Part shown: positions 38,136 through 57,726 of the stretch, one piece after another | Position numbering within the stretch: position 1 is the first letter of the stretch | Layout of the letters: each line of letters opens with the position of its first letter | Assembly (NCBI RefSeq): GCF_027214025.1 | Contig: NZ_JAPWHB010000005.1 | Span: forward strand, 134,575 to 198,574 | Direction: 5' to 3' | Length of the DNA: 64,000 nucleotides | Source of the DNA: Parahoeflea alexandrii | GTDB lineage: Bacteria > Pseudomonadota > Alphaproteobacteria > Rhizobiales > Rhizobiaceae | Made by a program: the position numbers and the translations under genes | Notes under the pieces: generated by a model | The model's input: the letters and a program-made list of their open reading frames with translations, nothing else | The model's database searches: none | What the model was told of the DNA's origin: nothing

Positions 38136-38204
38136 GCCCGTCCATACCCCGTGTCACCGCCTTCGCCAAGCCGGTTGCAGCACGGTTTCCGGGCCGCGCG
38201 GCGG

Positions 38205-39257: not shown

Positions 39258-39298
39258 TTGTCTGTCTCCGGTGGTGAGAAGGGGGATGGTCGCTGACC

Positions 39299-42313: not shown

Positions 42314-42337
42314 GAATATGTTATTCAAATAGGAATT
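42314..42337. promoter_or_regulatory. Putative IclR operator upstream of the MaoC-CoA-transferase pair
   Basis: TATTCAAATAGGAATT at 42322-42337 overlaps a palindrome GAATATGTTATTC (42314-42326). The same 16-mer with one change (TATTCAAATAAGAATT) occurs at 44986-45001 before the lactonase gene. It ends 11 bases before the ATG at 42349, so bound protein could block translation initiation or transcription. Confidence 0.6.
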
Positions 42338-42348
42338 TTGGAGGGGTC

Positions 42349-42909
42349 ATGAGATCTTCGTTCGAGCCCACGGTGGGCGTTGCCAGCACGCATCCGCGCA
42401 ACATGCCCCGGGAGCATGCGGAGCTGCCGGTCTGGAACGCCGAGAACTGGTTTTACGAGGACTGGCAGCCCGGTCACCAGATCCGGTCGCTGCGCCGGAC
42501 CATTGCCGAGGGCGAAAGCCACATGTTCAATACCCTCGTGGTCGACATCCATCCTTACGTACAGGACCAGATGTTTGCCGAAAGCGAAGGCATCTTCGGC
42601 CGCCGCCTGGTCGCCGGCGCTTTCGTGTTTTCCGCCGGCCTCGGACTGGTGGCGACCAACTGCGTAAACGCGTTTTCCTATGGCTACGACAAGCTGCGCT
42701 TCATCAAGCCCGTCTTCATCGGCGAGGCCATCTACACGGTGCGCACCAATCTCGACAAGAAACCGCGCTACCCGGACATGGGGCTGATCCGCGCCAGCTA
42801 TGAAGTGTTCAAGGGCGAAGGCGAGCTGGTGCTCTACTGCGAGCACCTCCAGACGGTGAAATACAGAAACCCGGCCGAGTTTGCCGGCAGGACCGAAAAG
42901 ACATCATGA
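42349..42909 (+). CDS. MaoC-fold hydratase-like protein, possible catalytic-residue loss
   Basis: The 186-residue hot-dog fold protein is a paralogue of the MaoC protein at 53018-53470: [22 protein letters not shown] matches there as [22 protein letters not shown] with nearly identical spacing. (R)-hydratases use D and H in a D-x4-H segment, visible as DFFPHH in the paralogue; here the aligned segment reads DIHPYV, so the usual histidine seems to be missing. The alignment is by eye. GGAGG is close before the ATG. It overlaps the CoA-transferase gene by four bases. Confidence 0.8.
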
Positions 42910-44066
42910 CAACAGATACCGACCTGCCACTGGATGGCCTCGTCATCCTCGATATGAGCCAGTTCCTGTCGGGGCCCTATGCCACCTTGCGGCTGCAGGA
43001 TCTCGGCGCACGCGTCATCAAGATCGAGCGTCCCGGCGCGGGGGATCTCTCGCGCTCGCTTTATCTCAGCGATACCGAGATCGGCGGCGATTCGACGATC
43101 TTCCACGCCATCAACCGCGGCAAGGAGAGCCTGGCCATCGACCTCAAGAACGAGGCCGATCTCGACGTGCTGCGCGCGCTGATCGGCAAGGTCGATGTCC
43201 TTGTCCAGAATTTCCGCCCCGGTGTCATCGAGCGTCTCGGCCTCGACTACGAGACTGTTCGCGCCCTCAATCCGAAACTCGTCTACGCTTCCATCAGCGG
43301 CTATGGCGAGGAGGGCCCCTGGGTCAAGCGCCCGGGCCAGGACCTGCTTGCGCAGGCGCGCTCGGGGGTGATGTGGCTGAGCGGCGACGATGGCGACGGC
43401 CCGGTGCCGATGGGGCTCGCGATCGGCGACATGCTCGCCGGCGCCGCCACCGCGCAGGGGATCCTCGCGGCGCTGGTCAAGCGCGGCATTTCCGGCCGCG
43501 GCAGCCATGTCGAGACCAGCCTTCTCGAGGTGCTGGTCGATTTCCAGTTCGAGGTGCTCACCACCTATCTCAACGACGGGCGGCGCATGCCCAGGCGCTC
43601 GGGCTTCCGCAGCGCCCATGCTTATCTCTCCGCACCCTACGGCGTCTACGAGGCCAGCGACGGGTTCCTTGCAATTGCCATGACGCCGATCCCGCGGCTT
43701 CAGGATCTGCTGCAGCTGGATGCGCTGGCGCCCTATGCCGCCGATCCGAAATCCTGGTTCACTGCCCGCGACGAGATCAAGCGCCTGATTGCCGACCGAA
43801 TCAAGACGAAAACGGTAGATGAATGGCTGGCGATCCTGGAGCCGGCCGATATCTGGTGCTCGCGCGTGCTCGACTGGGACGACCTGATGCAAAGTGAGGG
43901 TTTCGAGGTGCTCGACATGCTGCAGCGGGTCGAGCGCGACGACAATGTTTCGATCCTGACCACCCGCTCGCCGATCCGTGTCAACGGCCAGCGGCCGAAA
44001 ACCACCCGCGCTGCCCCCCGCGTCGGCGAACACAGTGCGGCGATCAGGGCTGAATTCGGGCTTTAG
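42906..44066 (+). CDS. CaiB/BaiF family (class III) CoA-transferase
   Basis: The 386-residue enzyme has N-terminal [20 protein letters not shown], the catalytic Asp probably D146 in [10 protein letters not shown], and [15 protein letters not shown] in the C-terminal half. Class III CoA-transferases move CoA between carboxylates and acyl-CoAs. It is coupled (ATGA) to a MaoC-fold gene in an IclR-linked island devoted to sugar-acid catabolism, where CoA thioesters are not part of the known pathway. The substrate is unknown; it could act on a pathway end product such as lactate or pyruvate, but this is speculation. Confidence 0.9.
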
Positions 44067-44076
44067 AGGCTAGCCC

Positions 44077-44913
44077 TCAAAGGTTCCAGATGCGCCGGGC
44101 GTTTCCGGCGAGCAGCTTCTGCTTTTCATCCCCGCTGGCGCCGTTCGTCAGCGCATGCGTCGCCGCGACCCATGCCATCAGCCCGCCGCCGAGCGTGCAG
44201 ACCGGCCAGTCGCTGCCCCAGACCACCCGGTCCCAGCCGAAGCTCGAGATCGTGTGCTCGACCCAGGGCCTGAGCGTGTCCGCAATCCAGGTTTCCGGAT
44301 CGGCATAGGCGATGACGCCTGAAATCTTGGCGACCACGTTGGGGCGCCTGGCGAGCTCGGTTATGTGGTCCTGCCAGGGCTGCCTGGCGTCGCCCTTGAT
44401 GTCGGGAACGCCGCAATGGTCGAGGATGAAGGTGACGTCGGGCGCGAGATCCGCCAGCGCCATGGCATTGGGCAGCTGGCGCGGCAGCACGCACAGATCG
44501 AAGGTCAGGCCGGAGCCGGCCATCCGCTTGATGTTGTCCCGGAACAGCGGCTGCTCGGACACTTCGTCCGGCATCACGTGCAGAACCCGGCGAAAGCCCT
44601 TGACCAGCGGATTGTGGCGCTGTCGCTCGAGATAGGCCGCGAACTCCGGTTCTTCCGGCCGGCAGGAGGCGATGGCGCCGGCAATCAGACTGTCGGGACG
44701 CTGCGCCAGCGTAGCAATGTAATTGGTTTCGTCCTCGATCCGCTCCGGCGCCACGTCGACTTCCATGTGCAGCGTCCGCGCGATGCCGGCGCGGCGCGCC
44801 TCCAGCTCATAGGCTGAATAGGGCCAGCCCTGGTTCAGCGCAGGGACGGTCGCCAGCCAGGGGTAATCCAGCGTCCACGGGTCCACGACATGCAGATGGG
44901 TGTCGATGATCAT
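44077..44913 (-). CDS. Amidohydrolase-2 family lactonase, likely L-fuconolactonase-like
   Basis: The 278-residue TIM-barrel amidohydrolase starts with IIDTHLHVVDPWTLDYPW (HxH metal motif). Conserved segments PFDLCVLPRQLP-like, FILDHCGVPDI and WGSDWPVCTLGG are typical of the uronolactonase and L-rhamnono/L-fuconolactonase group. In the context of L-fuconate dehydratase it likely opens a sugar lactone. The start at 44913 has GAGGAGG upstream. A 16-bp motif shared with the MaoC gene lies 73-88 bases upstream, at the 3' end of the IclR gene. Confidence 0.85.
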   Translation of the reverse strand: MIIDTHLHVVDPWTLDYPWLATVPALNQGWPYSAYELEARRAGIARTLHMEVDVAPERIEDETNYIATLAQRPDSLIAGAIASCRPEEPEFAAYLERQRHNPLVKGFRRVLHVMPDEVSEQPLFRDNIKRMAGSGLTFDLCVLPRQLPNAMALADLAPDVTFILDHCGVPDIKGDARQPWQDHITELARRPNVVAKISGVIAYADPETWIADTLRPWVEHTISSFGWDRVVWGSDWPVCTLGGGLMAWVAATHALTNGASGDEKQKLLAGNARRIWNL

Positions 44914-44985
44914 GCGGGTTCCTCCTCGAATGCGCCGGCTTGCCGTGCCCGGGCACGGACCACATACTCCCACAGGGAAATAGAC

Positions 44986-45001
44986 TATTCAAATAAGAAT
45001 T
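44986..45001. promoter_or_regulatory. Putative IclR operator upstream of the lactonase gene
   Basis: TATTCAAATAAGAATT, shared at 15 of 16 positions with 42322-42337, lies at the 3' end of the IclR regulator gene, 73 bases upstream of the lactonase start. The ends ATTC and GAAT are inverted around AAATAA. Confidence 0.6.
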
Positions 45002-45783
45002 CAGCCTGGCAATTCGAAATCGGCGCCGGCCAGTTTCGACAGCTGCCGCGAGGTTTTGGTCAGCATTTCCTGGGTCTCGGCCATCTCGGGCGCCTGGGAT
45101 ACGTTGACCAGGCTGATATAGGGGATGGTCAGCGCCGCGATGGCGCGGCCGTCCGGGCCGAGAACCGGGGCGGAAAGATTGAAGACGCCGGCGGTCTGGG
45201 CGCTCGGCATGACCTCGTAGCCGCGCTCGCGGATCAGGTCGAGACGCTCGAAGAACGCGCTTTCGAGCTTTGGCTGTTCGCCGCTGGCCGAATACTCGTT
45301 GATCATCATCTGTCGTTCTTCGGGCGAGCGGAAGGCCAGAAGCACGTGGCCCGATCCGGTGTCGTAAAGGCTGATATGCGAGCCGACGCGGATGGATATG
45401 CCCCAGTAGCCGGGTGCTTCCTGCTGCGCCACGACGACCACGGAACCGCGGTCGAAGACGGCGAGCTGGTTGGCCTGCCGGGTTTCCTCGGCAAGCTCGC
45501 GCATGAACGGCGTCGCGTAGGACACCAGCCGGCGAACCGGGACATGCAATTGCGCCAGGCCGAAGAGCTTGAGCGTCAGCGAGTAGCGGTCGCCGTCGAG
45601 CCGGGTGACATATCCGCGCCGCACCAGCCGGTCGAGCATCCGGTAGAACTCGTTCGGGCTGCGGCCCAGCCGCTTGGCGATCTCCGCCTGGGTGAGCCCG
45701 CCATCGATTTGTGCAAGCAGCTCGAGAATGTCGAGACCTTTGTCGAGCGCTGGCGCCCGGTAGCGGTCGTCTTCGGTTTCCAT
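45001..45783 (-). CDS. IclR family transcriptional regulator
   Basis: The 260-residue protein has an N-terminal winged helix (about residues 10-60; LTQAEIAKRLGRSPNEFYRM) and a GAF-like effector domain (about 75-250). IclR regulators respond to small aromatic or sugar-acid compounds. It is divergent from the sugar ABC transporter operon with an inverted 10-bp sequence pair in the intergenic region, and the shared 16-bp motifs suggest it also controls the MaoC/CoA-transferase and lactonase genes. Confidence 0.9.
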   Translation of the reverse strand: METEDDRYRAPALDKGLDILELLAQIDGGLTQAEIAKRLGRSPNEFYRMLDRLVRRGYVTRLDGDRYSLTLKLFGLAQLHVPVRRLVSYATPFMRELAEETRQANQLAVFDRGSVVVVAQQEAPGYWGISIRVGSHISLYDTGSGHVLLAFRSPEERQMMINEYSASGEQPKLESAFFERLDLIRERGYEVMPSAQTAGVFNLSAPVLGPDGRAIAALTIPYISLVNVSQAPEMAETQEMLTKTSRQLSKLAGADFELPG

Positions 45784-45805
45784 GTGTTTCTCCGTAAATC
45801 TCGAA

Positions 45806-45884
45806 ATTCATATACGCATAATGGGTTCAAATAACAACGAAACATTCCCTTGACCGCTGGTGAAGATGATGTTTGTATATGAAT
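45806..45884. promoter_or_regulatory. Divergent control region between the IclR regulator and sugar transporter genes
   Basis: ATTCATATAC at 45806-45815 and its exact reverse complement GTATATGAAT at 45875-45884 flank a central TTCAAATAAC (about 45825-45835), which resembles the core TTCAAATA of the two 16-bp sites. The symmetry fits binding on both sides of two divergent promoters and autoregulation. Confidence 0.55.
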
Positions 45885-45949
45885 GAACCTCTCATCTGTG
45901 AGGGTTCGAGGGGGTGACCCCAGGAGTTAAACGTCTCGGGAGGAGGCTC

Positions 45950-47266
45950 ATGAACAAGCTATTGACCGGCGTATCGGCCGGTGTCGTTCTATTGATGGCC
46001 GGCGGAATTGCGGCTGCCCAGGAATTGCCGGGCAAGTTCGAAGGCGTGACCATCGATGCCAAGCTCATCGGCGGTCAGCAGTATGAGAACCTCTATTCGC
46101 GCATCAGCGAATGGGAAAAGGCGACCGGCGCGACCGTCAACGTCATTTCGAAGAAGAACCACTTCGAACTCGACAAGGAAATCAAGTCGGACATCGCTGT
46201 TGGCGCGATCAGCTGGTGCGTTGGCTCGAACCACTCGTCCTTCGCGCCGCAGTATCCGGGCATCTACACCGATCTGGCAGTACTTCTGCCCGCTTCGGAA
46301 ATCGACGCCTTCGTCGACGCCAACATTGCCGCGTCCACGCTTGACGGCAAGCTCGTCATGCTGCCGCGCGCGCAGTTCGACGTCTCCGCTATGTATTACC
46401 AGAAGAGCCTTTACGCCGACGAGACCAACAAGGCGAAATTCAAGGAGAAATACGGCTATGACCTTACGCCGCCGGACACCTGGGAGCAGGTGACCGACCA
46501 GGCCGAATTCTTCGCCAATCCGCCGGACTTCTATGGCACCCAATATGCCGGCAAGGAAGAGGCCATCAACGGCCGCTTTTACGAAATGCTGCGCGCCGAG
46601 GGTGGAGAATATCTCAACGCCGATGGCGAACCGGCCTTCAATTCGGAGGCCGGCGTGCGGGCGCTGAACTGGTTCGTCGATCTCTACAAGGCCAAGGCGG
46701 TCCCTGCCGGAACGACCAACTATCTCTGGGACGACCTCGGCCAGGGCTTTGCATCGGGAACCGTCGCGCTCAATCTCGACTGGCCGGGCTGGGCCGGGTT
46801 CTTCAACGACCCGGGCGCATCCAAGGTGGCCGGCAATGTCGGTGTCGTTGCTCCGCCCAAGGGATCTTCCGGTGCGCGCACCGGCTGGTCCGGGCATCAT
46901 GGCTTCTCCGTCACCGAAAACTGCGCCAACAAGGAAGCTGCAGCGTCGCTGGTCTGGTTTCTCACCAATGAGGACAGCCAGAAGCTGGAAGCCGGCGCCG
47001 GTCCGCTGCCCACACGCGATGCGGTCTGGGACTGGGTGATCGAACAGGCCAAGGATGATCCATACCGCAAGGAAGTCCTCGAAGCCTTCCAGGAAGCCGC
47101 GAAGGGCGCCTATCCGGTTCCCCAGTCTCCGTCATGGATCGAGATTTCCAACGCGGTCTATCCGGAACTGCAGGCCGCCATTCTTGGTGACAAGACCTCG
47201 CAACAGGCCCTCGACGATGCCGCTGACAAGGCCACGGCCATCCTCGAGGATGCAGGAGAACTGTAA
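45950..47266 (+). CDS. Sugar ABC transporter substrate-binding protein (family 1, UgpB/MalE-like)
   Basis: The 438-residue lipidless periplasmic binding protein has a signal peptide of about 24 residues (ending GIAAAQ) and typical segments WSGHHGFSV-like and FEVDKEIKSDIAVG. GGGAGGAGG precedes the ATG at 45950; the upstream frame is not used. As first gene of the importer operon next to the L-fucose genes it probably binds L-fucose, a related sugar or a sugar-acid oligomer. Confidence 0.9.
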   Translation: MNKLLTGVSAGVVLLMAGGIAAAQELPGKFEGVTIDAKLIGGQQYENLYSRISEWEKATGATVNVISKKNHFELDKEIKSDIAVGAISWCVGSNHSSFAPQYPGIYTDLAVLLPASEIDAFVDANIAASTLDGKLVMLPRAQFDVSAMYYQKSLYADETNKAKFKEKYGYDLTPPDTWEQVTDQAEFFANPPDFYGTQYAGKEEAINGRFYEMLRAEGGEYLNADGEPAFNSEAGVRALNWFVDLYKAKAVPAGTTNYLWDDLGQGFASGTVALNLDWPGWAGFFNDPGASKVAGNVGVVAPPKGSSGARTGWSGHHGFSVTENCANKEAAASLVWFLTNEDSQKLEAGAGPLPTRDAVWDWVIEQAKDDPYRKEVLEAFQEAAKGAYPVPQSPSWIEISNAVYPELQAAILGDKTSQQALDDAADKATAILEDAGEL

Positions 47267-47282
47267 AGCCTCCTCCCGGAAG

Positions 47283-47312
47283 AGGGCGCGGGACCTGCCT
47301 GCGCCCTTTTTC
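47283..47312 (+). other. Hairpin with T-tract between binding-protein and permease genes
   Basis: AGGGCGC at 47283-47289 pairs with GCGCCCT at 47301-47307 and is followed by TTTTTC. It lies 16 bases after the binding-protein stop. It may act as a partial terminator that keeps the binding protein at a higher level than the permeases. Confidence 0.65.
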
Positions 47313-47385
47313 CCCCAAGCCGGTAGGCGCACGCCCCAGGCCGATGCGCTATGACTGTTCCCGATAATTTTGATACGAGGATCCG

Positions 47386-48282
47386 ATGAGAGGCTGGAAG
47401 CCTGCGCCGCATATCCTGCTGCTGCTGCCGGCCTTTGTCGTGCTGGCGGCGGTCGTGGTGGTGCCGCTGTTGCTGTCGCTCTACTCGAGCTTCACGCCGT
47501 TCCGGCTGACCCGGCCGGATTCGATCTACACCTTCATCGGTTTCCGCAACTACCTCCGGCTTTTCGCCGACCAGGAATTCTGGGTCGCCTTCGGCCGCAC
47601 CGTCTTGTTGCTGACCATCGCGCTCAATCTCGAGATGGTGCTTGGGCTGTTTCTGGCGCTGCTTGTCGAAAAGGCCACGCGCGGCCAGCGCCTGCTGCGC
47701 ACCATCATGATGTTTCCGATGATGTTCTCGCCGATCCTCGTCGGCTTCCAGTTCAAGTTCATGTTCAACGACAACATCGGGCTTGTGAACAACGCCCTGC
47801 AATCGCTCGGCCTGACCGATCGCGCCATCCCCTGGCTGATCGACAGCCAGCTGGCGTTCACCTCGATCCTGATTGCCGAGATCTGGTCCTCGACCTCGGT
47901 GTTCGCCATCTTCATCCTCGCGGGGCTGATGGCGATGCCCAAGGAGCCGCTCGAGGCGGCCAAGGTCGACGGCTGCACGCCGCTGCAGAGCTTCCGTTAT
48001 GTCACTTGGCCCTTCATCATGCCGTTTGCCTACATCGCCATGACCATCCGGTCGCTCGACATCGCCCGCGCCTATGACATCGTCAAGATCATGACCGACG
48101 GCGGGCCGGCCAAGCGCACCGAGATCCTCTGGACGCTGATCTCGCGCACCGCCTATTCGGACGCCCGCATGGGGCTAGCCAATGCAATGGCCTATGTCGC
48201 GATCTTCCTGTCGATTCTGTTCACCATCCTGTTCTTCCGGCAGCTTGCGAAAGCCCGCCAGCAGATCGGCGCGGAGTGGTGA
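47386..48282 (+). CDS. Sugar ABC transporter permease, MalF-type
   Basis: The 298-residue inner-membrane protein has six hydrophobic segments and the EAA loop EPLEAAKVDGCTPLQSFRYV, typical of family 1 carbohydrate importers. GAGG is upstream of the ATG. It pairs with the next permease, three bases after its stop. Confidence 0.93.
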   Translation: MRGWKPAPHILLLLPAFVVLAAVVVVPLLLSLYSSFTPFRLTRPDSIYTFIGFRNYLRLFADQEFWVAFGRTVLLLTIALNLEMVLGLFLALLVEKATRGQRLLRTIMMFPMMFSPILVGFQFKFMFNDNIGLVNNALQSLGLTDRAIPWLIDSQLAFTSILIAEIWSSTSVFAIFILAGLMAMPKEPLEAAKVDGCTPLQSFRYVTWPFIMPFAYIAMTIRSLDIARAYDIVKIMTDGGPAKRTEILWTLISRTAYSDARMGLANAMAYVAIFLSILFTILFFRQLAKARQQIGAEW

Positions 48283-48284
48283 TC

Positions 48285-49151
48285 ATGGACGAGAACCAGA
48301 CCAACCGCATCAAGCAGATCCTGCTGAAGATCGGCCATCTCGTCGGCCTGTTCATCGCCATGGCGATCATCTGCCTGCCGGGCCTGTGGATCGTGCTGTC
48401 CTCGCTCCGCCCCACCGTCGAGATCATGGCCAAGCCGCCGGTCTGGATCCCTGAGAGCCTGTCGTTCGACGCCTATATCGCCATGTTCTCCGGCGTCGGC
48501 CAGGGCGGCATCCCGGTGCTCGACTATTTTCGCAACTCGATCATCATCTCGGTCACCTCGACGGTCATCGCGCTGGCGATCGGGCTGGCCGGCGGCTATG
48601 CCTTTGCCCGCTACCGCTTCCGCGGCAAGACTGCGATCTTCCTGGGCTTCATGCTGACCCGGACAGTCCCGGGCATCGCGCTGTCGCTGCCGCTGTTCTT
48701 CGTCTATGCGAAGCTCGGCATGATCGACACCCATTTCGGGCTGATCCTTGCCTATGTCGCGCTCAACGTGCCGTTCACGGTCTGGCTGATCGACGGCTTC
48801 TTCCGCCAGGTGCCGCGCGATCTCGCCGAGGCGGCCCAGATCGACGGCTGCACCCGCTGGCAGGCCTTCTGGCAGGTCGAGTTTCCTTTGGCCCGATCGG
48901 GCATTGCCTCGGCCGGCATCTTCGCCTTCCTGATCTCCTGGAACGAGTTCGCGCTCGCCTCGCAGCTGACGCGCTCGACCAATTCCAAGACGCTGCCGGT
49001 CGGCCTGCTTGATTACACCGCCGAATTCACCATCGACTGGCGCGGCATGTGCGCGCTCGCCGTAGTGATGATCATCCCGGCGCTGACCCTCACCTTCATT
49101 GTCCAGAAACACCTCGTGTCCGGCCTGACCTCCGGCGCCGTCAAGGGATAG
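48285..49151 (+). CDS. Sugar ABC transporter permease, MalG-type
   Basis: The 288-residue permease has six hydrophobic segments and EAA loop PRDLAEAAQIDGCTRWQAFW. I prefer the ATG at 48285 to the GTG at 48276, as GGAG at 48273-48276 is spaced 8 bases from the former. It is followed by the ATPase gene after two bases. Confidence 0.92.
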   Translation: MDENQTNRIKQILLKIGHLVGLFIAMAIICLPGLWIVLSSLRPTVEIMAKPPVWIPESLSFDAYIAMFSGVGQGGIPVLDYFRNSIIISVTSTVIALAIGLAGGYAFARYRFRGKTAIFLGFMLTRTVPGIALSLPLFFVYAKLGMIDTHFGLILAYVALNVPFTVWLIDGFFRQVPRDLAEAAQIDGCTRWQAFWQVEFPLARSGIASAGIFAFLISWNEFALASQLTRSTNSKTLPVGLLDYTAEFTIDWRGMCALAVVMIIPALTLTFIVQKHLVSGLTSGAVKG

Positions 49152-49153
49152 TC

Positions 49154-50251
49154 ATGGCCACCGTTTCGCTCAAGAACCTCGTCAAGAAATATGGTCACCT
49201 CGAAGTGGTGCACGCCATCAATCTCGATGTCGCCGACCGCGAGTTCGTCGCCCTCGTCGGCCCGTCCGGCTGCGGCAAGTCAACCACGCTCAGGATGATC
49301 GCCGGTCTCGAAGCCATCAGCGGCGGCCACATCCATATCGGCGACCGGGAGGTCAACAACCTGCCGCCGCGCCAGCGCAATATTTCCATGGTGTTCCAAT
49401 CCTACGCGCTCTACCCGCACATGACGGTGGCCGAGAACATGGGCTTCTCATTGAAGATCGCCGGCAAGTCCCAGGACGAGATCGCCAGCGCCGTGGCCGA
49501 TGCCGCCAAGACGCTGGGCCTCGAGGAATTGCTCGACCGCCGCCCGTCGCAGCTTTCGGGCGGTCAGCGCCAGCGCGTCGCCATGGGCCGCGCCATCGTC
49601 CGCCATCCCGACGTGTTCCTGTTCGACGAGCCGCTCTCCAATCTCGACGCCAAGCTCAGGATGCAGATGCGCACCGAGATCAAGAAGCTGCACGCCAAGG
49701 TGCAGTCGACGGTGATCTACGTGACCCACGACCAGGTCGAGGCGATGACGCTCGCCGACCGCATCGTCATCATGCGTGACGGTCATATCGAGCAGGTCGG
49801 CCCGCCCGAGGAGGTGTTCCGCCGTCCTGCGACACGCTTCGTCGCCGGTTTCATCGGCTCGCCGACCATGAACCTGCACAATGCGGTGGTCAGCGATGGC
49901 AGGCTCGTCTTCGCCAACGGCGACACCCTGCCGCTGCCCGCCCAGTTCAAGGACCGTGTCAGCGCCGGCCAGAAGGTGATCTTCGGCCTCAGGCCCGACG
50001 ATCTCTACCCGACCGGCCACGGCATCCATTCCGGCGAAGCGGCGGAAGTCCACGCCGTCGAGGTTCCGGTGTCGCTGACCGAGCCGCTCGGCAACGAGAC
50101 GCTGGTCTTCGCCGAATTCGCCGGCCAGGACTGGATCTCGCGCATGCTCAATCCGAAGCCGCTGCGGGTGGGCGACCGGATCAACCTGAGCTTCGACCTG
50201 AGCCAGTCGCATTTGTTTGACGCGGCATCCGAGAAAAGCCTGAGGGGGTAG
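49154..50251 (+). CDS. Sugar ABC transporter ATPase, UgpC/MsmX-type
   Basis: The 365-residue ATPase has Walker A GPSGCGKST, signature LSGGQRQR, Walker B VFLFDEPLSNLD, and a C-terminal OB-fold TOBE domain (about 240-365; GLRPDDLYPTG). It powers the importer formed by the two permeases before it. Confidence 0.94.
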   Translation: MATVSLKNLVKKYGHLEVVHAINLDVADREFVALVGPSGCGKSTTLRMIAGLEAISGGHIHIGDREVNNLPPRQRNISMVFQSYALYPHMTVAENMGFSLKIAGKSQDEIASAVADAAKTLGLEELLDRRPSQLSGGQRQRVAMGRAIVRHPDVFLFDEPLSNLDAKLRMQMRTEIKKLHAKVQSTVIYVTHDQVEAMTLADRIVIMRDGHIEQVGPPEEVFRRPATRFVAGFIGSPTMNLHNAVVSDGRLVFANGDTLPLPAQFKDRVSAGQKVIFGLRPDDLYPTGHGIHSGEAAEVHAVEVPVSLTEPLGNETLVFAEFAGQDWISRMLNPKPLRVGDRINLSFDLSQSHLFDAASEKSLRG

Positions 50252-50255
50252 GGCC

Positions 50256-51377
50256 ATGGCGCGTATCGAAAAAGTCGAACTGCGCATGGTCGACCTCAAG
50301 CCGAAGGTCAGGCGCACCGATGCGATCCAGAGCTTCGTCAGCCAAGAGACCCCGATCGTCACGATCACCGATTCCGATGGCGCCACCGGCACCGGCTACA
50401 GCTACACCATCGGCACCGGCGGCTCCTCGGTCATGCGGCTGATCGCCGACCATCTCGCCCCGCGGCTGATCGGACGCGATGCCGACATGATCGAGGCGAT
50501 CTGGCACGAGCTGGAATTCGCCACCCACGCCACCACCATCGGCGCCATCACCGCGATCGCGCTTGCCGCCATCGACACGGCGCTGTGGGATCTGCGCGCC
50601 CGCAAGCAGGGACTGCCGCTGTGGAAACTGGCCGGCGGCGCCAAGGAGAAATGCCCGCTCTACACCACCGAGGGCGGCTGGCTGCACATCGAGACCGAGG
50701 CGCTGGTCGATGACGCGGTCCAGGCCAAAGCAAAAGGCTTCCTCGGCTCCAAGGTCAAGATCGGCCGCCCGCATGGATCGGAAGACCATGCCCGGCTGTC
50801 TGCCGTGCGCGCCGCCGTCGGCGATGGCTACGAGATCATGACCGACTGCAACCAGGGTTTCACCGTCGACGAGGCGATCAGGCGCGCCGACCGGCTGCGC
50901 GAACTGGATCTTGCCTGGTTCGAGGAACCGCTTCCCGCCGACGACATCGACGGCCATGTCCGCCTCTCGCGCTCGACCTCGACTCCGATTGCCGTGGGGG
51001 AATCGCTCTACTCGATCCGCCATTTCCGCGAATACATGCAGAAGGGCGGCTGCTCGATCGTCCAAGTCGATGTCGGCCGCATCGGCGGCATCACGCCCTG
51101 GCTGAAGGTGGCCCACGCGGCAGAGGCCTTCGACATTCCCGTCTGCCCGCATTTCCTGATGGAGCTGCATGTCAGCCTCACCTGCGCGGTGCCGAACGGC
51201 AAGTATGTCGAATACATACCGCAGCTCGACGAACTGACCTCAAGCCGCATGCGCATCGAGAACGGCCATGCCTATGCACCATCCGAACCGGGCATCGGCA
51301 TCGACTGGGACTGGGATGCGGTGCGCGGAAGGAGCATCGCCGAATTCACCACCGTGATTACGGAAAGGGAGGGCTGA
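50256..51377 (+). CDS. Mandelate racemase-type enolase-superfamily enzyme
   Basis: The 373-residue protein has the KxK acid/base motif (SKVKIGRP), metal ligands D in MTDCNQGF, E in AWFEEPLPA and E in AVGESLYS, and a later His in VCPHFLME. It belongs to the mandelate racemase-like branch. Five bases follow the transporter ATPase gene, so it is in the same operon and probably processes the imported sugar acid. Whether it is a dehydratase, epimerase or cycloisomerase is not decided. Confidence 0.85.
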   Translation: MARIEKVELRMVDLKPKVRRTDAIQSFVSQETPIVTITDSDGATGTGYSYTIGTGGSSVMRLIADHLAPRLIGRDADMIEAIWHELEFATHATTIGAITAIALAAIDTALWDLRARKQGLPLWKLAGGAKEKCPLYTTEGGWLHIETEALVDDAVQAKAKGFLGSKVKIGRPHGSEDHARLSAVRAAVGDGYEIMTDCNQGFTVDEAIRRADRLRELDLAWFEEPLPADDIDGHVRLSRSTSTPIAVGESLYSIRHFREYMQKGGCSIVQVDVGRIGGITPWLKVAHAAEAFDIPVCPHFLMELHVSLTCAVPNGKYVEYIPQLDELTSSRMRIENGHAYAPSEPGIGIDWDWDAVRGRSIAEFTTVITEREG

Positions 51378-51380
51378 ACC

Positions 51381-51710
51381 ATGCAGCGAATGGGAATGGT
51401 CATCGGCCTGAAGCCGGAGGAGATCGCCGAGTACAAGCGCCTGCACGTCGCCGTCTGGCCGGACATCCTCGACATGATCTCGAAGTGCAACATCCGCAAC
51501 TACACGATTTTTCTCAGGGAGCCGGAAAACCTGCTGTTCGGCTACTGGGAATATCACGGCGCCGATTTCGAAGCCGACGCGGCGAAGATGGCGGCCGATC
51601 CGAGAACGCAGGAATGGTGGGACGTCTGTATGCCTTGCCAAGAGCCGTTGGACACCCGCAAGGACGGGGAATGGTGGGCGATGATGGAGGAGGTGTTCCA
51701 TCATGACTGA
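51381..51710 (+). CDS. L-rhamnose/L-fucose mutarotase (RhaM/FucM family)
   Basis: The 109-residue ferredoxin-like protein interconverts sugar anomers. The catalytic His is in YKRLHVAVWP; CNIRNYTIFL and LLFGYWEYHG are family features. The genomic neighbours favour L-fucose over L-rhamnose. It begins three bases after the enolase-superfamily gene. Confidence 0.86.
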   Translation: MQRMGMVIGLKPEEIAEYKRLHVAVWPDILDMISKCNIRNYTIFLREPENLLFGYWEYHGADFEADAAKMAADPRTQEWWDVCMPCQEPLDTRKDGEWWAMMEEVFHHD

Positions 51711-51733
51711 GATTTTGTCGGGGGATGGGATTT

Positions 51734-51912
51734 CCCCCTCACCAACTTCGGCCAAGAGCTCGCTTCGCTCGCCCGGCCTTCGTATCCTCTCCCACGAGGG
51801 GAGAGGCAGAGCCCCCGTGAGATCGCCATTGCGGCATCCTCTCCCCTCGTGGGAGAGGATAGCAAGCCCGTATGAGACGCAGTCGAATACTTGGGCGCGC
51901 TTGGTGAGGGGG
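51734..51912. repeat. Rhizobial-type nested palindromic intergenic element (RIME-like)
   Basis: An outer 12-bp perfect inverted repeat (51734-51745 with 51901-51912) encloses an inner 24-bp perfect inverted repeat (51783-51806 with 51838-51861) with a 31-base centre. The block lies inside an operon, between the mutarotase and Gfo/Idh genes, and is followed by a weak ribosome-binding site. The cruciform-like nested structure and its CTCTCCC-type arms resemble dispersed intergenic mosaic elements known from rhizobia. It could attenuate or process the transcript. Confidence 0.75.
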
Positions 51913-51947
51913 CTTTTGAGGCTCAAACTATTTGTGGGATCCCATCC

Positions 51948-53015
51948 ATGAGCTTCGATCCCACCACCCTGCAGCAAGCCTGGCCGGCGCCTTCCAGCCC
52001 CCGCCCCATCGTCACCTTCGGCGCGGGCTCCATCGTCGGCGATGCGCATTTTCCGGCCTACCGCAAGGCGGGCTTTCCGGTTGCGGGCCTCTATGATCCA
52101 GACATTGCGAAGGCACGGAAGCTTGCCGACGAGTGGGGCCTGACGGCCTATACCTCGGCGGAAGAAGCGGCTGCGGTTCCCGGCGCTGTCTTCGATCTCG
52201 CCACCCCGCCCAACGTCCACGCCAGCGTGCTGCGCCTGCTGCCCGGAGGTGCCGCAGTGCTGATCCAGAAGCCGATGGGCAGCGACCTGGCGGCGGCGAC
52301 CGAAATCCTGACCATCTGCCGCGAGAAGAACCTCAAGGCTGCTGTCAATTTTCAGCTGCGCTTCGCGCCGATGATACTTGCTTTGAAAGATGCGATCGCA
52401 AAGGGCTGGCTCGGCGAGGTTGTCGATTTCGACGCCTGGCTGGCGCTGGCGACGCCCTGGCAATTGTGGCCCTTCCTCAAGGGCCTGCCGCGCATCGAGA
52501 TCGCCATGCATTCGATCCATTATCTCGATCTGATCCGGCAATTGCTCGGCGATCCGCACGGCGTTCACGCCAAGTCCATCGGCCACCCGAACCACGACGT
52601 CGCCCAGACCCGCACCAGCGCCATTCTCGATTACGGCGACCGGGTCCGCTGCGCCTTGTCGATCAACCACGATCACGATTTCGGCCGCAGGCACCAGGCC
52701 TGCGAGTTCCGCATCTCAGGTACCGAGGGCGCGGCCTATTTGCAATTGGGCGTCAATCTCGACTATCCGCGCGGCGAGCCCGACATACTCGAAGTCCGGC
52801 CCAAGGGCAGCGATGAGTGGATTGCGGTGCCGCTGAAAGGCTCCTGGTTTCCCGATGCCTTCGTCGGCCGCATAGCCAATCTGCAGCGCTTCGCCGCTGG
52901 AGAAGACACGGAGCTTGTAAGCTCGGTCGAGGATGCCTGGAACACCATGGCGCTGGTCGAGGCGGCCTACCGGTCCTCTGCCGCCCCGGCGACCCCGCTT
53001 GAGAAGAGACCCTGA
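51948..53015 (+). CDS. Gfo/Idh/MocA family oxidoreductase
   Basis: The 355-residue protein has an N-terminal NAD(P) fold ([18 protein letters not shown]) and the EKP-like sugar-binding motif as QKP in LIQKPMG, with the C-terminal GFO-like domain of about 200 residues. In the L-fucose context it is a candidate sugar dehydrogenase. The start at 51948 follows the element at 51734-51912; no other start fits the family. Confidence 0.86.
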
Positions 53016-53017
53016 GT

Positions 53018-53470
53018 ATGGAACAGACAACCTATTTCGAAGACTATGAAATCGGCAGCCAGCGGACCACTTACGGACGCACCATCACCGAGACCGATTT
53101 CGTCGTCCATGCCGGCCACACCGGCGATTTCTTCCCGCACCACATGGATGCCGAGTTCATGAAGACGCAAGCCTTCGGCCAGCGCATCGCCCACGGCACG
53201 ATGGTGTTTTCCATCGGTGTCGGCCTGACCGCGAGTGTCATCAACCCGGTGGCGTTTTCCTATGGCTATGACCGCATGCGCTTTGTCAAACCGGTCTTCA
53301 TCGGCGATACAATCCACACCCGCACGACGATCGCCTCCAAGGAGGACGATCCGAAGCGCAAGGATATGGGGCGCGTGTTCGAGCGCACCGAGGTCGTCAA
53401 CCAGCACGGCGATGTGGTGCTGGTCGCCGATCACATCTATATCGTGGAACGAAAGCACAAGCCCGCCTGA
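53018..53470 (+). CDS. MaoC-fold hydratase-like protein
   Basis: The 150-residue hot-dog protein retains the (R)-hydratase-type motif DFFPHH, followed by [11 protein letters not shown] and [18 protein letters not shown]. It is a close paralogue of the protein at 42349-42909. It lies three bases after the Gfo/Idh gene and 21 before the SDR gene. Why a hydratase of acyl-CoA type sits in a sugar pathway is not clear; it could act on an unsaturated sugar-acid intermediate. Confidence 0.84.
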
Positions 53471-53491
53471 GCGGCAACATATGGAGACATC

Positions 53492-54226
53492 ATGGCAGAC
53501 TGGGTCAAGGACAAGACGGTACTGGTGACGGCCGCAGGCCAGGGCATCGGCCGCGCAACCGCAATCGCGTTCGCCGCCGCCGGCGCGCGCGTCATCGCCA
53601 CCGACATCAACGAAACCACGCTGGCCGAACTTTCCGGCACATCCGGAATTGAGACCCGACGGCTCGACGTGCTCGACAATCAGGACATTGTCTCGACGGT
53701 CGCCGCCGTCGGTCCGGTCGACGTCCTGTTCAACGGCGCGGGTTTCGTTCACGCAGGCTCGATCCTGGAGATGCCGGACGAGGATTTCGACTTCGCGATC
53801 GATCTCAATGTGCGCTCGATGATCCGCACCATCCGCGCGGTATTGCCGGCGATGATCGAGCGCGGCGGCGGCGCGATCGTCAACATGTCGTCGGTGGCAA
53901 GCTCGATCAAGGGCGTGCCCAACCGCTTCGCCTATTCCACCACCAAGGCTGCCGTCGTCGGGCTGACCAAGTCGGTCGCCGCCGATTATGTCGGCCAGGG
54001 CATCCGCTGCAACGCCATCTGCCCCGGTACGGTCGAAAGCCCGTCGCTACAGGAGCGCATGCGGGCGCAGGGCGACTACGAGACAGCCCGCGCGGCCTTC
54101 ATCGCCCGCCAGCCGATGGGCCGGCTCGGAACGCCGGAGGAAATCGCCGATCTCGCTGTCTATCTGGCAAATGCCACCTACACTTCTGGACAGGCCTACG
54201 CGATCGATGGCGGCTGGACCATCTGA
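53492..54226 (+). CDS. SDR, probable L-fucose or 2-keto-3-deoxy-L-fuconate dehydrogenase
   Basis: The 244-residue SDR has the NAD loop [13 protein letters not shown]-like FNGAG and the YxxxK active site YSTTK (about 149-153), with [14 protein letters not shown]. Similar proteins are 2-keto-3-deoxy-L-fuconate dehydrogenase in L-fucose pathways. It could equally oxidise L-fucose; the neighbouring Gfo/Idh protein is then the other dehydrogenase. GGAGA is upstream. Confidence 0.84.
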
Positions 54227-54249
54227 CGACCAGGACAGGATCAACGACC

Positions 54250-55545
54250 GTGACGAAAATCACTGGCCTCGAGACCCATGATCTCAGGTTCCCGACATCG
54301 CTGAGCCTTGATGGCTCGGATGCGATGAACCCGGACCCGGACTATTCGGCGGCCTATGTCGTGCTCAGGACCGATACTCCGGGAATGGAAGGCCACGGTC
54401 TGACCTTCACCATCGGCCGCGGCAACGACATTTGCTGCGCCGCGATCGAGGCCATGCGCCATCTCGTCGTCGGCCTCGACCTGGCCTGGATCAGTGAAAA
54501 CCCCGGCCGGTTCTGGCGGCATGTGACCTCCGACAGCCAGCTGCGCTGGATCGGCCCCGACAAGGGCGCCATCCACCTGGCGACCGGCGCGGTGGTCAAC
54601 GCGGTCTGGGATCTGCTGGCCAAGCAGGCGGGCAAGCCGGTCTGGCGGCTGGTTGCCGACATGAGCCCCGAGCAGATCGTCGACATCGTCGATTTCCGTT
54701 ATCTCACCGACGCGATCACCCGCGACGAGGCGCTGGAGATCCTCCGGCGCGCCGAACCCGGCAAGGCGGAGCGGATCGCGAGCCTCGAAGAGACCGGCTA
54801 CCCCTGCTACACCACGTCGGCCGGTTGGCTTGGCTATCCCGACGACAAGCTCCGCCGCCTGTGCCGCGAGGCGGTCGCCGCCGGCTACGACCACGTCAAG
54901 CTCAAGGTAGGCCGTGATCTCGACGATGACATAAGGCGGCTCAGGATCGCGCGCGAGGAATTGGGTCCCGACCGGTTTCTGATGATCGACGCCAACCAGG
55001 TCTGGGAGGTCGGCGAGGCGATCGAGTGGATGAAGCAGCTCGCCTTTGCGAAACCGTTCTTCATCGAGGAGCCAACCAGCCCGGACGACATAGCCGGCCA
55101 CAAGGCCATTCGCGAGGCGATTGCGCCGGTGAAGGTGGCGACCGGCGAGATGTGCCAGAACCGCATCATCTTCAAGCAGATGATCGTCGGCGGCGCCATC
55201 GACGTGGTCCAGATCGACGCCTGCCGCATGGGCGGGCTCAACGAGGTGCTGGCGGTTCTGCTGATGGCCGCGAAGTACAATCTTCCGGTCTGGCCGCATG
55301 CCGGCGGCGTCGGCCTGTGCGAATATGTCCAGCATCTCTCGATGATTGATTTTGTCGCCATATCCGGCACAATGGAGGGGCGGGTGATCGAGTACGTCGA
55401 CCATCTGCACGAGCATTTCCTTCACCCGTGCGTCATCCGCGATGCAGCCTACATGCCGCCCTCATCGCCCGGCTTCTCCATCGAGATGAAAGCCAGATCC
55501 ATAACCGAGTACACCTTCACGCCGTCACAGACTGCGGTCGCCTGA
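54250..55545 (+). CDS. L-fuconate dehydratase (FucD), GTG start
   Basis: The 431-residue enolase-superfamily enzyme dehydrates L-fuconate to 2-keto-3-deoxy-L-fuconate. It has acid/base lysines in HVKLKVGRD, Mg(II) carboxylates in [15 protein letters not shown] and ATGEMCQN, and a late His/Gly segment [16 protein letters not shown]. The length and these segments match the FucD type; it may also act on D-arabinonate. A GTG at 54250 is the start. Confidence 0.93.
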
Positions 55546-55574
55546 CCGCCCACCAGACACAAGGAAAGAACATC

Positions 55575-56414
55575 ATGAAACTGCTTCGCGTTGGCGCCCC
55601 CGGCCAGGAAAAGCCCGCCATTCTCGACGCCGATGGCAAGGCCCGCGATCTCTCTTCCGTCATCAGCGATATTGCCGGTGACGCGCTGCTGCCGGAAAGC
55701 CTGGCGAAGATCGCGGCAATCGATCCGGCCACGCTGCCGGAACTGGCGGATGGCCGCATCGGCCCTTGTGTCGGCCAGGTCGGCAAATTCATCTGCATCG
55801 GCCTGAATTACTCCGACCACGCGGCCGAAAGCGGCCTGGATGTGCCCAAGGAGCCGGTTATCTTCATGAAGGCCACCAGCGCCATCTGCGGCCCCGACGA
55901 CACGGTCCTGATCCCGCGCAAATCGGTCAAGACCGACTGGGAAGTCGAACTCGGCGTCATCATCGGCAAGGGCGGCGTCTATATCGACGAAGCCGACGCG
56001 CTTGACCACGTCGCCGGCTACTGCGTCGTCAACGACGTCTCCGAGCGCGAATTCCAGATCGAGCGCTCGGGCACCTGGGACAAGGGCAAGGGCTGCGACA
56101 CCTTCGGGCCGATCGGCCCCTGGCTGGTCACCCGCGACGAGGTTGCCGATCCGCAGAACCTCAAGATGTGGCTGGAAGTAGACGGCCACCGCTACCAGGA
56201 CGGCTCCACCAGCACCATGGTCTTCGGCGTCAAGCATCTGGTGAGCTATGTCAGCCAGTTCATGAGCCTGCAGCCTGGCGATGTGATCTCCACCGGAACG
56301 CCTCCCGGCGTCGGCATGGGCCAGAAGCCGCCGACCTATCTCAAAGGCGGCGAGACCATGGAACTCGGCATCGAAGGACTGGGCCAGCAGCGCCAGAAGG
56401 TCGGCAAGGCCTGA
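55575..56414 (+). CDS. FAH-fold hydrolase, probable 2,4-diketo-3-deoxy-L-fuconate hydrolase
   Basis: The 279-residue FAH-fold enzyme has metal ligands E, E and D in the segments VIFMKATSA-to-WEVELGVIIG; GLNYSDHAAESG precedes them. Its position after FucD and the SDR suggests hydrolysis of 2,4-diketo-3-deoxy-L-fuconate to pyruvate and L-lactate. The ATG at 55575 follows AAGGAAAG; the longer upstream frame overlaps FucD. It is the last gene before a strong terminator. Confidence 0.88.
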   Translation: MKLLRVGAPGQEKPAILDADGKARDLSSVISDIAGDALLPESLAKIAAIDPATLPELADGRIGPCVGQVGKFICIGLNYSDHAAESGLDVPKEPVIFMKATSAICGPDDTVLIPRKSVKTDWEVELGVIIGKGGVYIDEADALDHVAGYCVVNDVSEREFQIERSGTWDKGKGCDTFGPIGPWLVTRDEVADPQNLKMWLEVDGHRYQDGSTSTMVFGVKHLVSYVSQFMSLQPGDVISTGTPPGVGMGQKPPTYLKGGETMELGIEGLGQQRQKVGKA

Positions 56415-56467
56415 GGCTGATCAGGGGGCGTTCCGCTATCTGACGTCTCAAGAGCCAAACATGACGG

Positions 56468-56494
56468 GCGCCGGGGTTTTCCCGGCGCTTTTTT
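56468..56494 (+). terminator. Intrinsic terminator of the L-fucose operon
   Basis: GCGCCGGG at 56468-56475 pairs with CCCGGCGC at 56481-56488 and is followed by TTTTTT. It lies 53 bases after the FAH-fold hydrolase stop and shows that the next gene needs its own promoter. Confidence 0.9.
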
Positions 56495-56571
56495 GCCAAT
56501 TCGGGGTTGCGGGCTGCGTCAATCTGCCCGAAACAAGGCCGCTGCTTTTTGCATCTGGGGGGATATCCGAA

Positions 56572-57714
56572 ATGACCGACTTCAACCTGCCCGACGAGGG
56601 CATTTTCATCGGCCGCATCTGGTCGCCCGAGGTTCAGGGACCATCCGTGGTGACGCTTCGCGACGGCAAGATCGTCGACATCACGTCAAAGGCTGCGCCG
56701 ACAGTGCGCGACATCTGCGAGATGGACGATCCCGCAGCTTATGTGCGTGGCGCTGACGGCGTGACGGTTGGCGATCTCGCTTCACTGGCGGCCAATTCCG
56801 GTGACATGGCGAAGCCGCATTTCCTTGCCCCGTGCGATCTCCAGGCGGTCAAGGCCTGCGGTGTCACCTTCGCGTCCTCCATGGTCGAGCGGGTGATCGA
56901 GGAGAAGGCCGCCGGCGACCCGAAGAAGGCGCAGGATATCCGCGCCCGTGTCGGCGACATCATCGGCGGCTCGCTTCGCAACATCAAGGCGGGTTCGGAA
57001 GAGGCCGCCAGGGTGAAGTCGGCGCTGATCGCGGAAGGCATGTGGAGCCAGTATCTCGAGGTCGGCATCGGGCCGGACGCGGAGGTGTTTACCAAGGGGC
57101 AGGTGCTGTCCTCGGTCGGTCCGGGGGCGGAGGTCGGACTGCATCCGGTGTCCAAATGGAACAATCCGGAGCCCGAGATCGTTCTGGCCGTGTCGTCGAA
57201 AGGCCGCATCGTCGGTGCATCGCTCGGCAATGACGTCAACCTGCGCGATGTCGAGGGCCGCTCGGCACTGCTTCTCGGCAAGGCAAAGGACAACAACGCC
57301 AGCTGCGCCATCGGGCCGATGATCCGTCTGTTCCATGACGCTTTCACGCTCGACAACGTCCGCCGGGCCGAACTCGACCTGACGGTGAAGGGGGAGGACG
57401 GTTACGTGCTCAAGGGCCATTCCTCAATGAAGGAGATCAGCCGCGACCCCGCCGATCTGGTCGGACAGACCCTCGGCCGCCATCACCAGTACCCCGACGG
57501 GCTGATGCTTTTTCTCGGCACCCTGTTCGCACCGACCCAGGACCGTGATACGCCGGGCGAGGGATTTACCCACAAGATCGGCGACGTCGTCACCATTTCG
57601 TCGCCCGGGCTTGGCAGTCTTACCAACACGGTGCGGCTGTCGACCCAGTGTCCGGAATGGACATTCGGCGTCGCCTCTTTTATGCGGAACCTCGCCGCAA
57701 GAAATCTTATCTGA
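56572..57714 (+). CDS. FAH-family 2-keto-3-deoxy sugar-acid dehydratase (XylX/KdaD-like)
   Basis: The 380-residue protein belongs to the long FAH-superfamily branch that dehydrates 2-keto-3-deoxypentonates to alpha-ketoglutaric semialdehyde. Segments include ASSMVERVIEEKAAGDP, GSLRNIKAGSEEA, and SKWNNPEPEIVLAVSSKG, with GNDVNLRDVEGRS. The next gene, an alpha-ketoglutaric semialdehyde dehydrogenase, is the expected partner. I use 56572 with GGGGGGATA upstream; the frame to 56461 overlaps the terminator. Confidence 0.87.
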   Translation: MTDFNLPDEGIFIGRIWSPEVQGPSVVTLRDGKIVDITSKAAPTVRDICEMDDPAAYVRGADGVTVGDLASLAANSGDMAKPHFLAPCDLQAVKACGVTFASSMVERVIEEKAAGDPKKAQDIRARVGDIIGGSLRNIKAGSEEAARVKSALIAEGMWSQYLEVGIGPDAEVFTKGQVLSSVGPGAEVGLHPVSKWNNPEPEIVLAVSSKGRIVGASLGNDVNLRDVEGRSALLLGKAKDNNASCAIGPMIRLFHDAFTLDNVRRAELDLTVKGEDGYVLKGHSSMKEISRDPADLVGQTLGRHHQYPDGLMLFLGTLFAPTQDRDTPGEGFTHKIGDVVTISSPGLGSLTNTVRLSTQCPEWTFGVASFMRNLAARNLI

Positions 57715-57726
57715 ACGGAGACCGAT

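Follow-up and report, generated by a model that had tools for sequence, protein, structure and literature searches.

Why should a gene unit for oxidative sugar breakdown contain genes for coenzyme A (CoA) thioester chemistry? The question is raised by an L-fucose-type gene unit at positions 42349-59232 of a 64,000-nucleotide stretch of Parahoeflea alexandrii DNA (contig NZ_JAPWHB010000005.1; the whole stretch is hereafter called the window). The unit starts with maoC1 and ends with an aldehyde dehydrogenase (ALDH) gene, and candidates for each step of an oxidative L-fucose-type pathway are found in it beside a family III CoA-transferase (CaiB) and two MaoC proteins (MaoC1 and MaoC2). The genes maoC1 and caiB lie on the forward strand, a candidate lactonase gene and iclR on the reverse strand, and the remaining genes again on the forward strand, in the order importer, eno2, mutarotase, gfo, maoC2, sdr, fucD, fah1, fah2 and aldh. 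An initial annotation of the window had held that the known L-fucose route needs no CoA thioesters, and the term 'CoA' is indeed absent from the accessible main text of its description (PMC11199699).

Comparison with related loci leads to a tentative answer, namely that the CoA genes may form a CoA-recycling aldonate dehydratase built into the oxidative sugar pathway. The gene content, conservation and linkage of these genes, the operator-like sites that they share and their catalytic residues are established as follows.

Conservation of the CoA genes with the sugar genes

Gene neighbourhoods were compared, as the initial annotation had proposed, in 16 loci from 14 other genomes and in 80 listed loci out of at least 532 confirmed relatives. 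Seventy of these 80 loci span at least 19 kb (the long loci); flanks were 10 kb, and the counts given for CaiB, FAH1, MaoC1 and a signal-less solute-binding-like protein (cSBP, described below) are lower bounds. All 70 long loci have the Gfo/Idh/MocA oxidoreductase (Gfo), the mutarotase and the IclR regulator near MaoC2, and most have eno2 (68), the importer's solute-binding protein (64) and the lactonase (60). The cSBP is present in at least 48, FucD and the short-chain dehydrogenase/reductase (SDR) in 42 each, CaiB in at least 13, FAH1 in at least 12 and MaoC1 in at least 5. The usual order in relatives is maoC1 (where present)-caiB-cSBP, then lactonase-iclR, then importer-eno2-mutarotase-gfo-maoC2, followed by sdr, fucD and fah1 in variable order or not at all.

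Many Rhizobiaceae have CaiB, MaoC2 and Gfo/Idh together, as do other Alphaproteobacteria and a Bacteroidota plasmid. Because these three recur together across lineages, the CoA genes are not passengers, and a chance neighbourhood is ruled out. The CoA genes thus belong to the sugar unit. Among 101 genomes (that of the window included), 10 had a MaoC1 orthologue with 64% identity or more, and 15 had a MaoC2-type match that was 36-42% identical to MaoC1. Among plasmid records, MaoC2 was matched in 106 at E 1e-30, 75 of them from Sinorhizobium or Ensifer, and MaoC1 in 87 at E 1e-40. Outside the family a MaoC2 orthologue (>248 bits) is uncommon, being present in 4 of 385 genomes of the class, the window's own included.

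A common operator-like site

Three operator-like sites, all read on the forward strand, lie at the places expected of an IclR regulon: TTCAAATAGGAA at 42324-42335, 13 bp upstream of the maoC1 start; TTCAAATAAGAA at 44988-44999, between iclR (45001-45783, reverse strand, identified by family profile matches) and the lactonase gene; and TTCAAATAACAA, with one mismatch, at 45826-45837, in the divergent promoter of iclR and the importer. These are the only occurrences of TTCAAATANGAA with at most one mismatch in the 64 kb (42324, 44988 and 45826). A 14-base form of the motif, allowing two mismatches, had three matches (42324, 44988 and 57702) against 0.14 expected, and none of 100 shuffles reached three; these statistics are post hoc, because the motif was read from the sequence beforehand. 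At least one such site was present in eight of nine related loci scanned, and none in L043. The CoA genes thus have an operator-like site in common with the importer, which lends sequence support to a shared regulon and agrees with the initial annotation, where the CoA genes were described as embedded and co-regulated.

Catalytic residues of the transferase and the hydratase

CaiB/CaiD-type carnitine metabolism recycles CoA by means of a family III CoA-transferase and an enoyl-CoA hydratase encoded in one unit. Two features are required of such a module, the conserved Asp in the transferase and the catalytic residues in the hydratase, and both are present here. CaiB (42906-44066, forward strand; PF02515, 342 bits) overlaps maoC1 by 4 bases, and its conserved Asp, aligned to solved structures, is found in all 45 sequences from MaoC-containing (type A) loci and in all 6 from the crotonase-containing (type B) loci described below. 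The window CaiB falls within a group of 34 type A sequences (support 100/100) that excludes 11 paralogues from the same genome, a separation that is partly by design because the sequences were picked by similarity. MaoC2 (53018-53470, forward strand; PF01575, 84 bits) is a hydratase-2 type enoyl-CoA hydratase, and the Asp and His of this type (GD[FY][FY]PxH) are found in 108 of 108 distinct sequences. These residues of CaiB and of the hydratases are known to be catalytic. The closest structure to MaoC2 is 4ffu (253.8 bits), an orthologue deposited as an 'oxidase', which would gain a candidate role if the proposed function is true.

MaoC1 (42349-42909, forward strand; PF01575, 41 bits; nearest PDB entry 4ffu, 77 bits) is MaoC-like, and all 15 distinct orthologues carry D-x-H-P-Y-V. 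The canonical catalytic His is therefore gone, and MaoC1 is more likely to be a partner subunit, as is known from heteromeric MaoC enzymes, than a second hydratase. A mesaconate- or itaconate-type CoA pathway was considered and rejected, the scores being far below the cut-offs (CaiB, 219 versus 700 bits; MaoC2, 56 versus 340 bits; RipB/Ich).

A solute-binding protein without a signal peptide

Near the place of CaiB in at least 48 of the 70 long loci lies the cSBP, a solute-binding-protein-like protein (Pfam SBP_bac_8) that has no signal peptide. The end of its gene overlaps caiB in L129 and L153, for example, which are annotated records; in L129 (Roseibium algicola), CaiB, cSBP and MaoC2 are all encoded in a single cluster. 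In phylum samples of 398 genomes each for MaoC2 and cSBP, the genome lists of which coincide in the listed part, all 13 non-self genomes with MaoC2 (at least 248 bits) were among the 17 non-self genomes with a cSBP. The genome of the window has an orphan cSBP gene on contig C2 (L157, positions 615-1766 in G000), 83% identical to that of L041, and no CaiB match was found on that contig. As in the window, caiB directly adjoins the lactonase gene in a Hoeflea record (L048).

Changing surroundings of a constant module

The CoA module is kept while the enzymes downstream of it are swapped. For instance, FucD, SDR and FAH1 are found with it in Sinorhizobium meliloti and Roseibium; a UxaA-type COG2721 protein with SDR and FAH1 in Ponticoccus L153, L134, L135 and L041; and UxaA or an enolase with an RraA-like aldolase in L137 and L038. 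Additionally, it accompanies five importer types: CUT1, CUT2, MFS and RhaT-like (as annotated), and TRAP (by eye).

A parallel operon type has another CaiB and a crotonase-type enoyl-CoA hydratase (type B; nine loci: L100, L140, L164, L170, L171, L172, L173, L174 and L175), in organisms that include Sinorhizobium M103 (L170), Streptomyces (L171) and Azospirillum (L172). A cSBP lies beside CaiB and the crotonase in all type B sets except that of Martelella. For the crotonase, both catalytic Glu motifs were found in 7 cSBP-linked sequences as well as in that of Martelella; in L160 the second pattern was unmatched. Aldose 1-epimerase and SDR-type genes occur in order in five of the loci (L164, L170, L171, L174 and L175), and CUT2 importers are frequent. 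FAH2, which resembles 2-keto-3-deoxypentonate (KDP) dehydratase, is found in the stretches of six of the nine (L100, L140, L164, L171, L172 and L175) and not in L170, L173 or L174. In Azospirillum L172 the order is CaiB-cSBP-crotonase-FAH2-ALDH, followed by an ABC importer. A MaoC version in Streptomyces (L155) consists of cSBP-FAH2 and CaiB-MFS-MaoC-ALDH, split by a transposase-like remnant (by eye).

These arrangements bear on the suggestion in the initial annotation that the extra genes channel lactate, or that the substrate is an acylated sugar acid. A role in handling lactate, another by-product or an acyl group on the imported sugar would fit the lactate expected from FAH1-type outlets, and a larA/larC-like pair stands beside one cluster (L039, by eye). 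However, the module is kept where the outlet looks like FAH2 and ALDH (L172 and L155) and with several unrelated importer types, and no esterase following the module was noticed, no search having been aimed at esterases. Moreover, MaoC and crotonase enzymes act on beta-hydroxyacyl- or enoyl-CoA, and lactate is not such a compound. Both suggestions are thus not favoured, and a role of this kind is unlikely.

The module is also found beside genes for polysaccharide breakdown. On a Persicobacter plasmid, two CaiB, two cSBP, Gfo, MaoC2 and IclR genes adjoin alpha-L-fucosidase, sulfatase and GH16 genes, and a similar set with an alpha-L-fucosidase occurs on a Croceibacterium plasmid. From these arrangements, the module's own substrate may be a relative of L-fucose rather than L-fucose itself. 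The Persicobacter psychrovividus plasmid with the module (pPP8; L177, 23325-30110) also has a second oxidative L-fucose-type group, comprising fucP, mutarotase, amidohydrolase and altronate dehydratase family genes. It could be argued that the unit is an ordinary oxidative L-fucose pathway, with CoA genes that are under the same control and yet act on an unrelated hydroxy acid of the same niche. Even without the CoA genes, each step of the known route has a candidate, and MaoC2 is found once outside sugar genes (L136). Against this stand the close association of the module with sugar genes in several families, the separate parallel sugar operon type and the alpha-L-fucosidases that adjoin it on the two plasmids, and this explanation is rather improbable.

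Loci without a known aldonate dehydratase

Nineteen module loci were screened locally for known aldonate dehydratases. An enolase-type match was found in six, and the other 13 gave no match to the IlvD/EDD, enolase-family or UxaA types. The 13 match-free loci (18-28 kb) were rescreened with corrected reference dehydratases at E 1e-3, together with eight control loci; again no match to the three types was found in the 13, and all eight controls were positive, L179, L180, L182 and L041 being themselves sources of the references and type B L170 being weak (76 bits). Six FAH2 loci (L140, L155, L162, L164, L171 and L172) are without a known local aldonate dehydratase, and L046 has SDR and FAH1 with no local dehydratase match. 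The step missing from operons that end in FAH2 is the conversion of aldonate to 2-keto-3-deoxy acid, and it is this step that is assigned to the CoA module. In some type B and minimal operons (L172 and, similarly, L171, L164, L155, L140 and L162), the module thus appears, by gene content, to take the place of the aldonate dehydratase.

An epimerising role was also considered. The module may load CoA onto a hydroxy acid and, by dehydration and rehydration or by alpha-proton exchange, epimerise a neighbouring sugar acid to the L-fuco form, for dehydration by FucD or UxaA. This would account for the fact that most rhizobial loci have FucD and eno2 as well as the module; in addition, alpha-methylacyl-CoA racemases belong to the CaiB family, and the relatives close to eno2 are of the galactarate/talarate dehydratase type. 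Nevertheless, the six FAH2 loci just named would be left without a local route to the 2-keto-3-deoxy acid, and epimerisation is considered unlikely.

Genome-wide, a FucD orthologue (at least 60% identity over the whole query) was absent from 11 of 17 genomes and present in five, as well as in G028 as two contig-edge pieces. In seven genomes (six without FucD, and G769 with it), UxaA-type genes were found in six, and enolase- and IlvD-type genes in all seven. The absence of FucD as proof of dehydratase replacement was set aside, as other dehydratase types occur genome-wide. Given the dehydratase genes elsewhere in the tested genomes, it is the local argument for replacement that stands.

Proposed CoA-recycling dehydratase

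The unit has a CoA-transferase and a hydratase with no thiolase or ligase, which suggests that CoA is only borrowed. In the proposed dehydratase, the substrates, the transfer of CoA to an aldonate, the loss of water and the parts played by cSBP, MaoC1 and Gfo are predicted from gene neighbourhoods. The importer, mutarotase, Gfo oxidoreductase and amidohydrolase would convert a sugar of the L-fucose, D-arabinose or L-galactose type to its aldonate. CaiB would then move CoA from an acyl-CoA onto the aldonate, which is probably held by the cSBP that stands beside CaiB in most relatives. The thioester would acidify the C2-H and so permit loss of the C3 hydroxyl, which MaoC2 (paired, in loci that encode it, with a non-catalytic MaoC1) would take off the aldonyl CoA ester to leave the CoA ester of a 2-keto-3-deoxy acid. 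CaiB would hand the CoA to the next aldonate, and CoA would not be consumed. The 2-keto-3-deoxy acid could leave through SDR and FAH1, giving pyruvate and lactate or glycolate, or through FAH2 and ALDH, giving 2-oxoglutarate. In type B operons, a crotonase would act in place of MaoC.

L-Fuconate, D-arabinonate and L-galactonate have the 3R configuration. MaoC hydratases are specific for the R form and crotonases for the S form, and thus the model predicts 3S aldonates for type B operons. It is possible, although doubtful, that this is a general, metal-independent mode of sugar-acid dehydration through CoA thioesters, in which CaiB and the cSBP load the acid and MaoC (3R) or crotonase (3S) eliminates water. 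A transport-type binding protein would have been recruited as an enzyme partner, and an alternative to IlvD, enolase and UxaA enzymes would exist in Alphaproteobacteria, at least one other lineage of the same phylum, Streptomyces and Bacteroidota. To our knowledge, the aldonate dehydratases that serve oxidative sugar pathways require a metal or an iron-sulphur cluster and work without CoA. If the proposal is true, sugar catabolism would gain a step of a new type, catalysed by a CoA-recycling dehydratase and open to a simple stereochemical prediction (MaoC for 3R and crotonase for 3S acids). Many 'CaiB', 'MaoC' and 'extracellular solute-binding protein' genes that neighbour sugar genes in records of rhizobial, marine and Streptomyces origin would also gain a role.

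Several points weigh against the proposed dehydratase. We know of no dehydration of a 2,3-dihydroxyacyl-CoA of this kind. The loci were chosen for carrying the module and are not a random sample. FucD is present in the cluster of the window and in 42 of the 70 long loci, and eno2 in 68, and therefore the module looks redundant for L-fuconate in those clusters; in the window it may serve D-arabinonate or L-galactonate, with FucD serving L-fuconate. An enolase-type gene was found in L100, L161, L163, L173, L174 and L175 as well as in L170, which covers five of the nine type B loci; the L100 matches are eno2 and fucD of an adjoining type A cluster, and in L161, L163, L173, L174 and L175 the match lies outside the gene run of the module. 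Among genomes with dehydratase-free module loci, G756, G769 and G678 have a FucD orthologue elsewhere, and G070 has elsewhere four IlvD/EDD genes, three enolase-family genes (two over the cut-off) and one UxaA-type gene. The parts of the module are also not always together: the window has no cSBP beside caiB, one copy being on contig C2 of its genome; G002 has CaiB and no MaoC1 orthologue; and in L136 (G127) a MaoC2 orthologue stands amid acyl-CoA dehydrogenase- and ligase-like genes (by eye), a non-sugar context. Finally, caiB of S. meliloti 1021 pSymB (L130, 9301-10457) is in two pieces in different frames, and this strain may therefore suit tests of caiB poorly. The pSymB genes concerned are at about 731300-755300 of NC_003078.1.

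Relation to known systems

For the non-phosphorylating L-fucose route 3 (FucM, FucA, FucB, FucC, FucF and FucG), as described in the accessible part of PMC11199699, the window has candidates for the mutarotase, FucD, SDR and FAH hydrolase and, below the cut-off of its model, the lactonase, in one cluster with an importer; it adds CaiB, two MaoC proteins, eno2, Gfo, FAH2 and ALDH. Four families of this route (mutarotase, FucD, the SDR-type 2-keto-3-deoxy-L-fuconate 4-dehydrogenase and FAH hydrolase) thus occur together in the window cluster, as families only. The candidate 1-dehydrogenase is Gfo in the window and of the SDR or aldo-keto type in the L-fucose pathway of PMC6336799, as far as its available text goes.

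In the same portion of that source, two FAH-superfamily COG3970/COG0179 proteins of Herbaspirillum are KDP dehydratases that form alpha-ketoglutaric semialdehyde, and a COG2721 protein dehydrates D-arabinonate, with L-fuconate at 5.6% of that rate. The Route II pentose pathway to which they belong is similar to the module loci in its FAH2 and ALDH outlet and, in some relatives, in a COG2721-type dehydratase, and differs in that the aldonate dehydratase step is apparently taken by CaiB, cSBP and hydratase in some operons. The assignments of FAH2 as KDP dehydratase and of ALDH as alpha-ketoglutaric semialdehyde dehydrogenase denote kinship only.

The window resembles the CaiB/CaiD carnitine system in that one unit encodes both an enoyl-CoA hydratase and a CoA-transferase of family III. 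In contrast to that system, it has a sugar context, a cSBP partner in most relatives and, in type A, a MaoC fold; in addition, no acyl-CoA ligase was found among the genes of 42349-59232, unlike the expectation for the CaiB/CaiD type. A CaiB-type transferase and a MaoC-type hydratase are also paired in the succinyl-CoA:mesaconate CoA-transferase/mesaconyl-CoA hydratase system (PMC5592240, in its accessible part), but the window cluster has no citramalyl- or malyl-CoA lyase. There is a precedent for CoA chemistry in sugar-acid breakdown in deoxyribonate oxidation, which includes a glyceryl-CoA step (accessible text of PMC9007349).

In the incompletely covered full-text literature, from which subscription papers and preprints were absent, no description of a role for CaiB or MaoC in sugar-acid catabolism was found, nor was this gene arrangement, in line with the view in the initial annotation that the system is undescribed. 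Likewise, nothing was found there on SMb211xx locus tags. Fitness Browser data reportedly link SM_b21103-21106 to L-fucose. The characterised L-fucose binding protein of S. meliloti is SMc02774, which is not from this cluster (PMC3454389, available part).

Organisation of the unit in the window

Every reported gene is an uninterrupted reading frame at the stated place, as judged from the reading frames of the window and family profile matches. The initial annotation had placed the unit at 42349-56414 and listed FucD, an FAH-fold hydrolase, SDR, mutarotase, lactonase and importer; family matches to all of these lie within that range and the start holds, but the unit continues beyond that end with FAH2 and ALDH to 59232. 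The candidate aldonolactonase is an amidohydrolase-2 protein (44077-44913, reverse strand; L-fucono-1,5-lactonase model NF052480, 110.9 bits versus a cut-off of 400). All further genes of the unit are on the forward strand. The ABC importer consists of a CUT1 sugar-binding protein (45950-47266, from an ATG that follows a ribosome-binding-like stretch), two permeases assigned by family profile matches (47386-48282 and 48285-49151) and a UgpC-type ATPase (49154-50251; NF008653, 485.9 bits, over the cut-off of 432). When the binding protein was compared with solved structures, the nearest were too distant for its sugar to be named.

Downstream of the importer, eno2 (50256-51377; nearest PDB entries 5xd7, 257 bits, and 2pp0, 217 bits) encodes a mandelate-racemase-family protein, a putative aldonate dehydratase or epimerase. 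It is followed by the RhaM-family mutarotase (51381-51710; PF05336, 118 bits) and by Gfo (51936-53015), a candidate aldose 1-dehydrogenase by family match. Beyond maoC2 lie the SDR (53492-54226), a family match and, from its neighbours, a candidate 2-keto-3-deoxy-L-fuconate 4-dehydrogenase; FucD (54250-55545), an L-fuconate dehydratase type enolase whose orthologues carry that annotation; and FAH1 (55575-56414), of the 2,4-diketo-3-deoxy-L-fuconate hydrolase type (NF053535, 421.8 bits versus a cut-off of 500). FAH2 (56572-57714) has a probable kinship to COG3970; it is nearest to 9kkt, an uncharacterised FAH-family structure (419 bits), and weakly similar to the 2-keto-3-deoxy-D-arabinonate dehydratase 2q18 (61 bits). 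The last gene encodes the ALDH (57727-59232; 3v4c, 816 bits), a candidate alpha-ketoglutaric semialdehyde dehydrogenase.

The source assembly is 5.54 Mb, and the most similar loci among the matches listed are those of an alphaproteobacterial metagenome-assembled genome (MAG) and of Hoeflea MAGs. Upstream of the unit, at 33953-40222, are xanthine/uracil-type permease, allantoicase and LysR genes and, by eye, ornithine cyclodeaminase- and arginase-like genes, and a urea-type ABC system lies on the opposite strand beyond 59232. Within the unit, the interval between the mutarotase and gfo genes has a palindromic repeat (51784-51860), where these two genes overlap in L129. Seven half-sites of the repeat were found in the genome with at most two mismatches, against none for the control, and it resembles rhizobial RIME elements.

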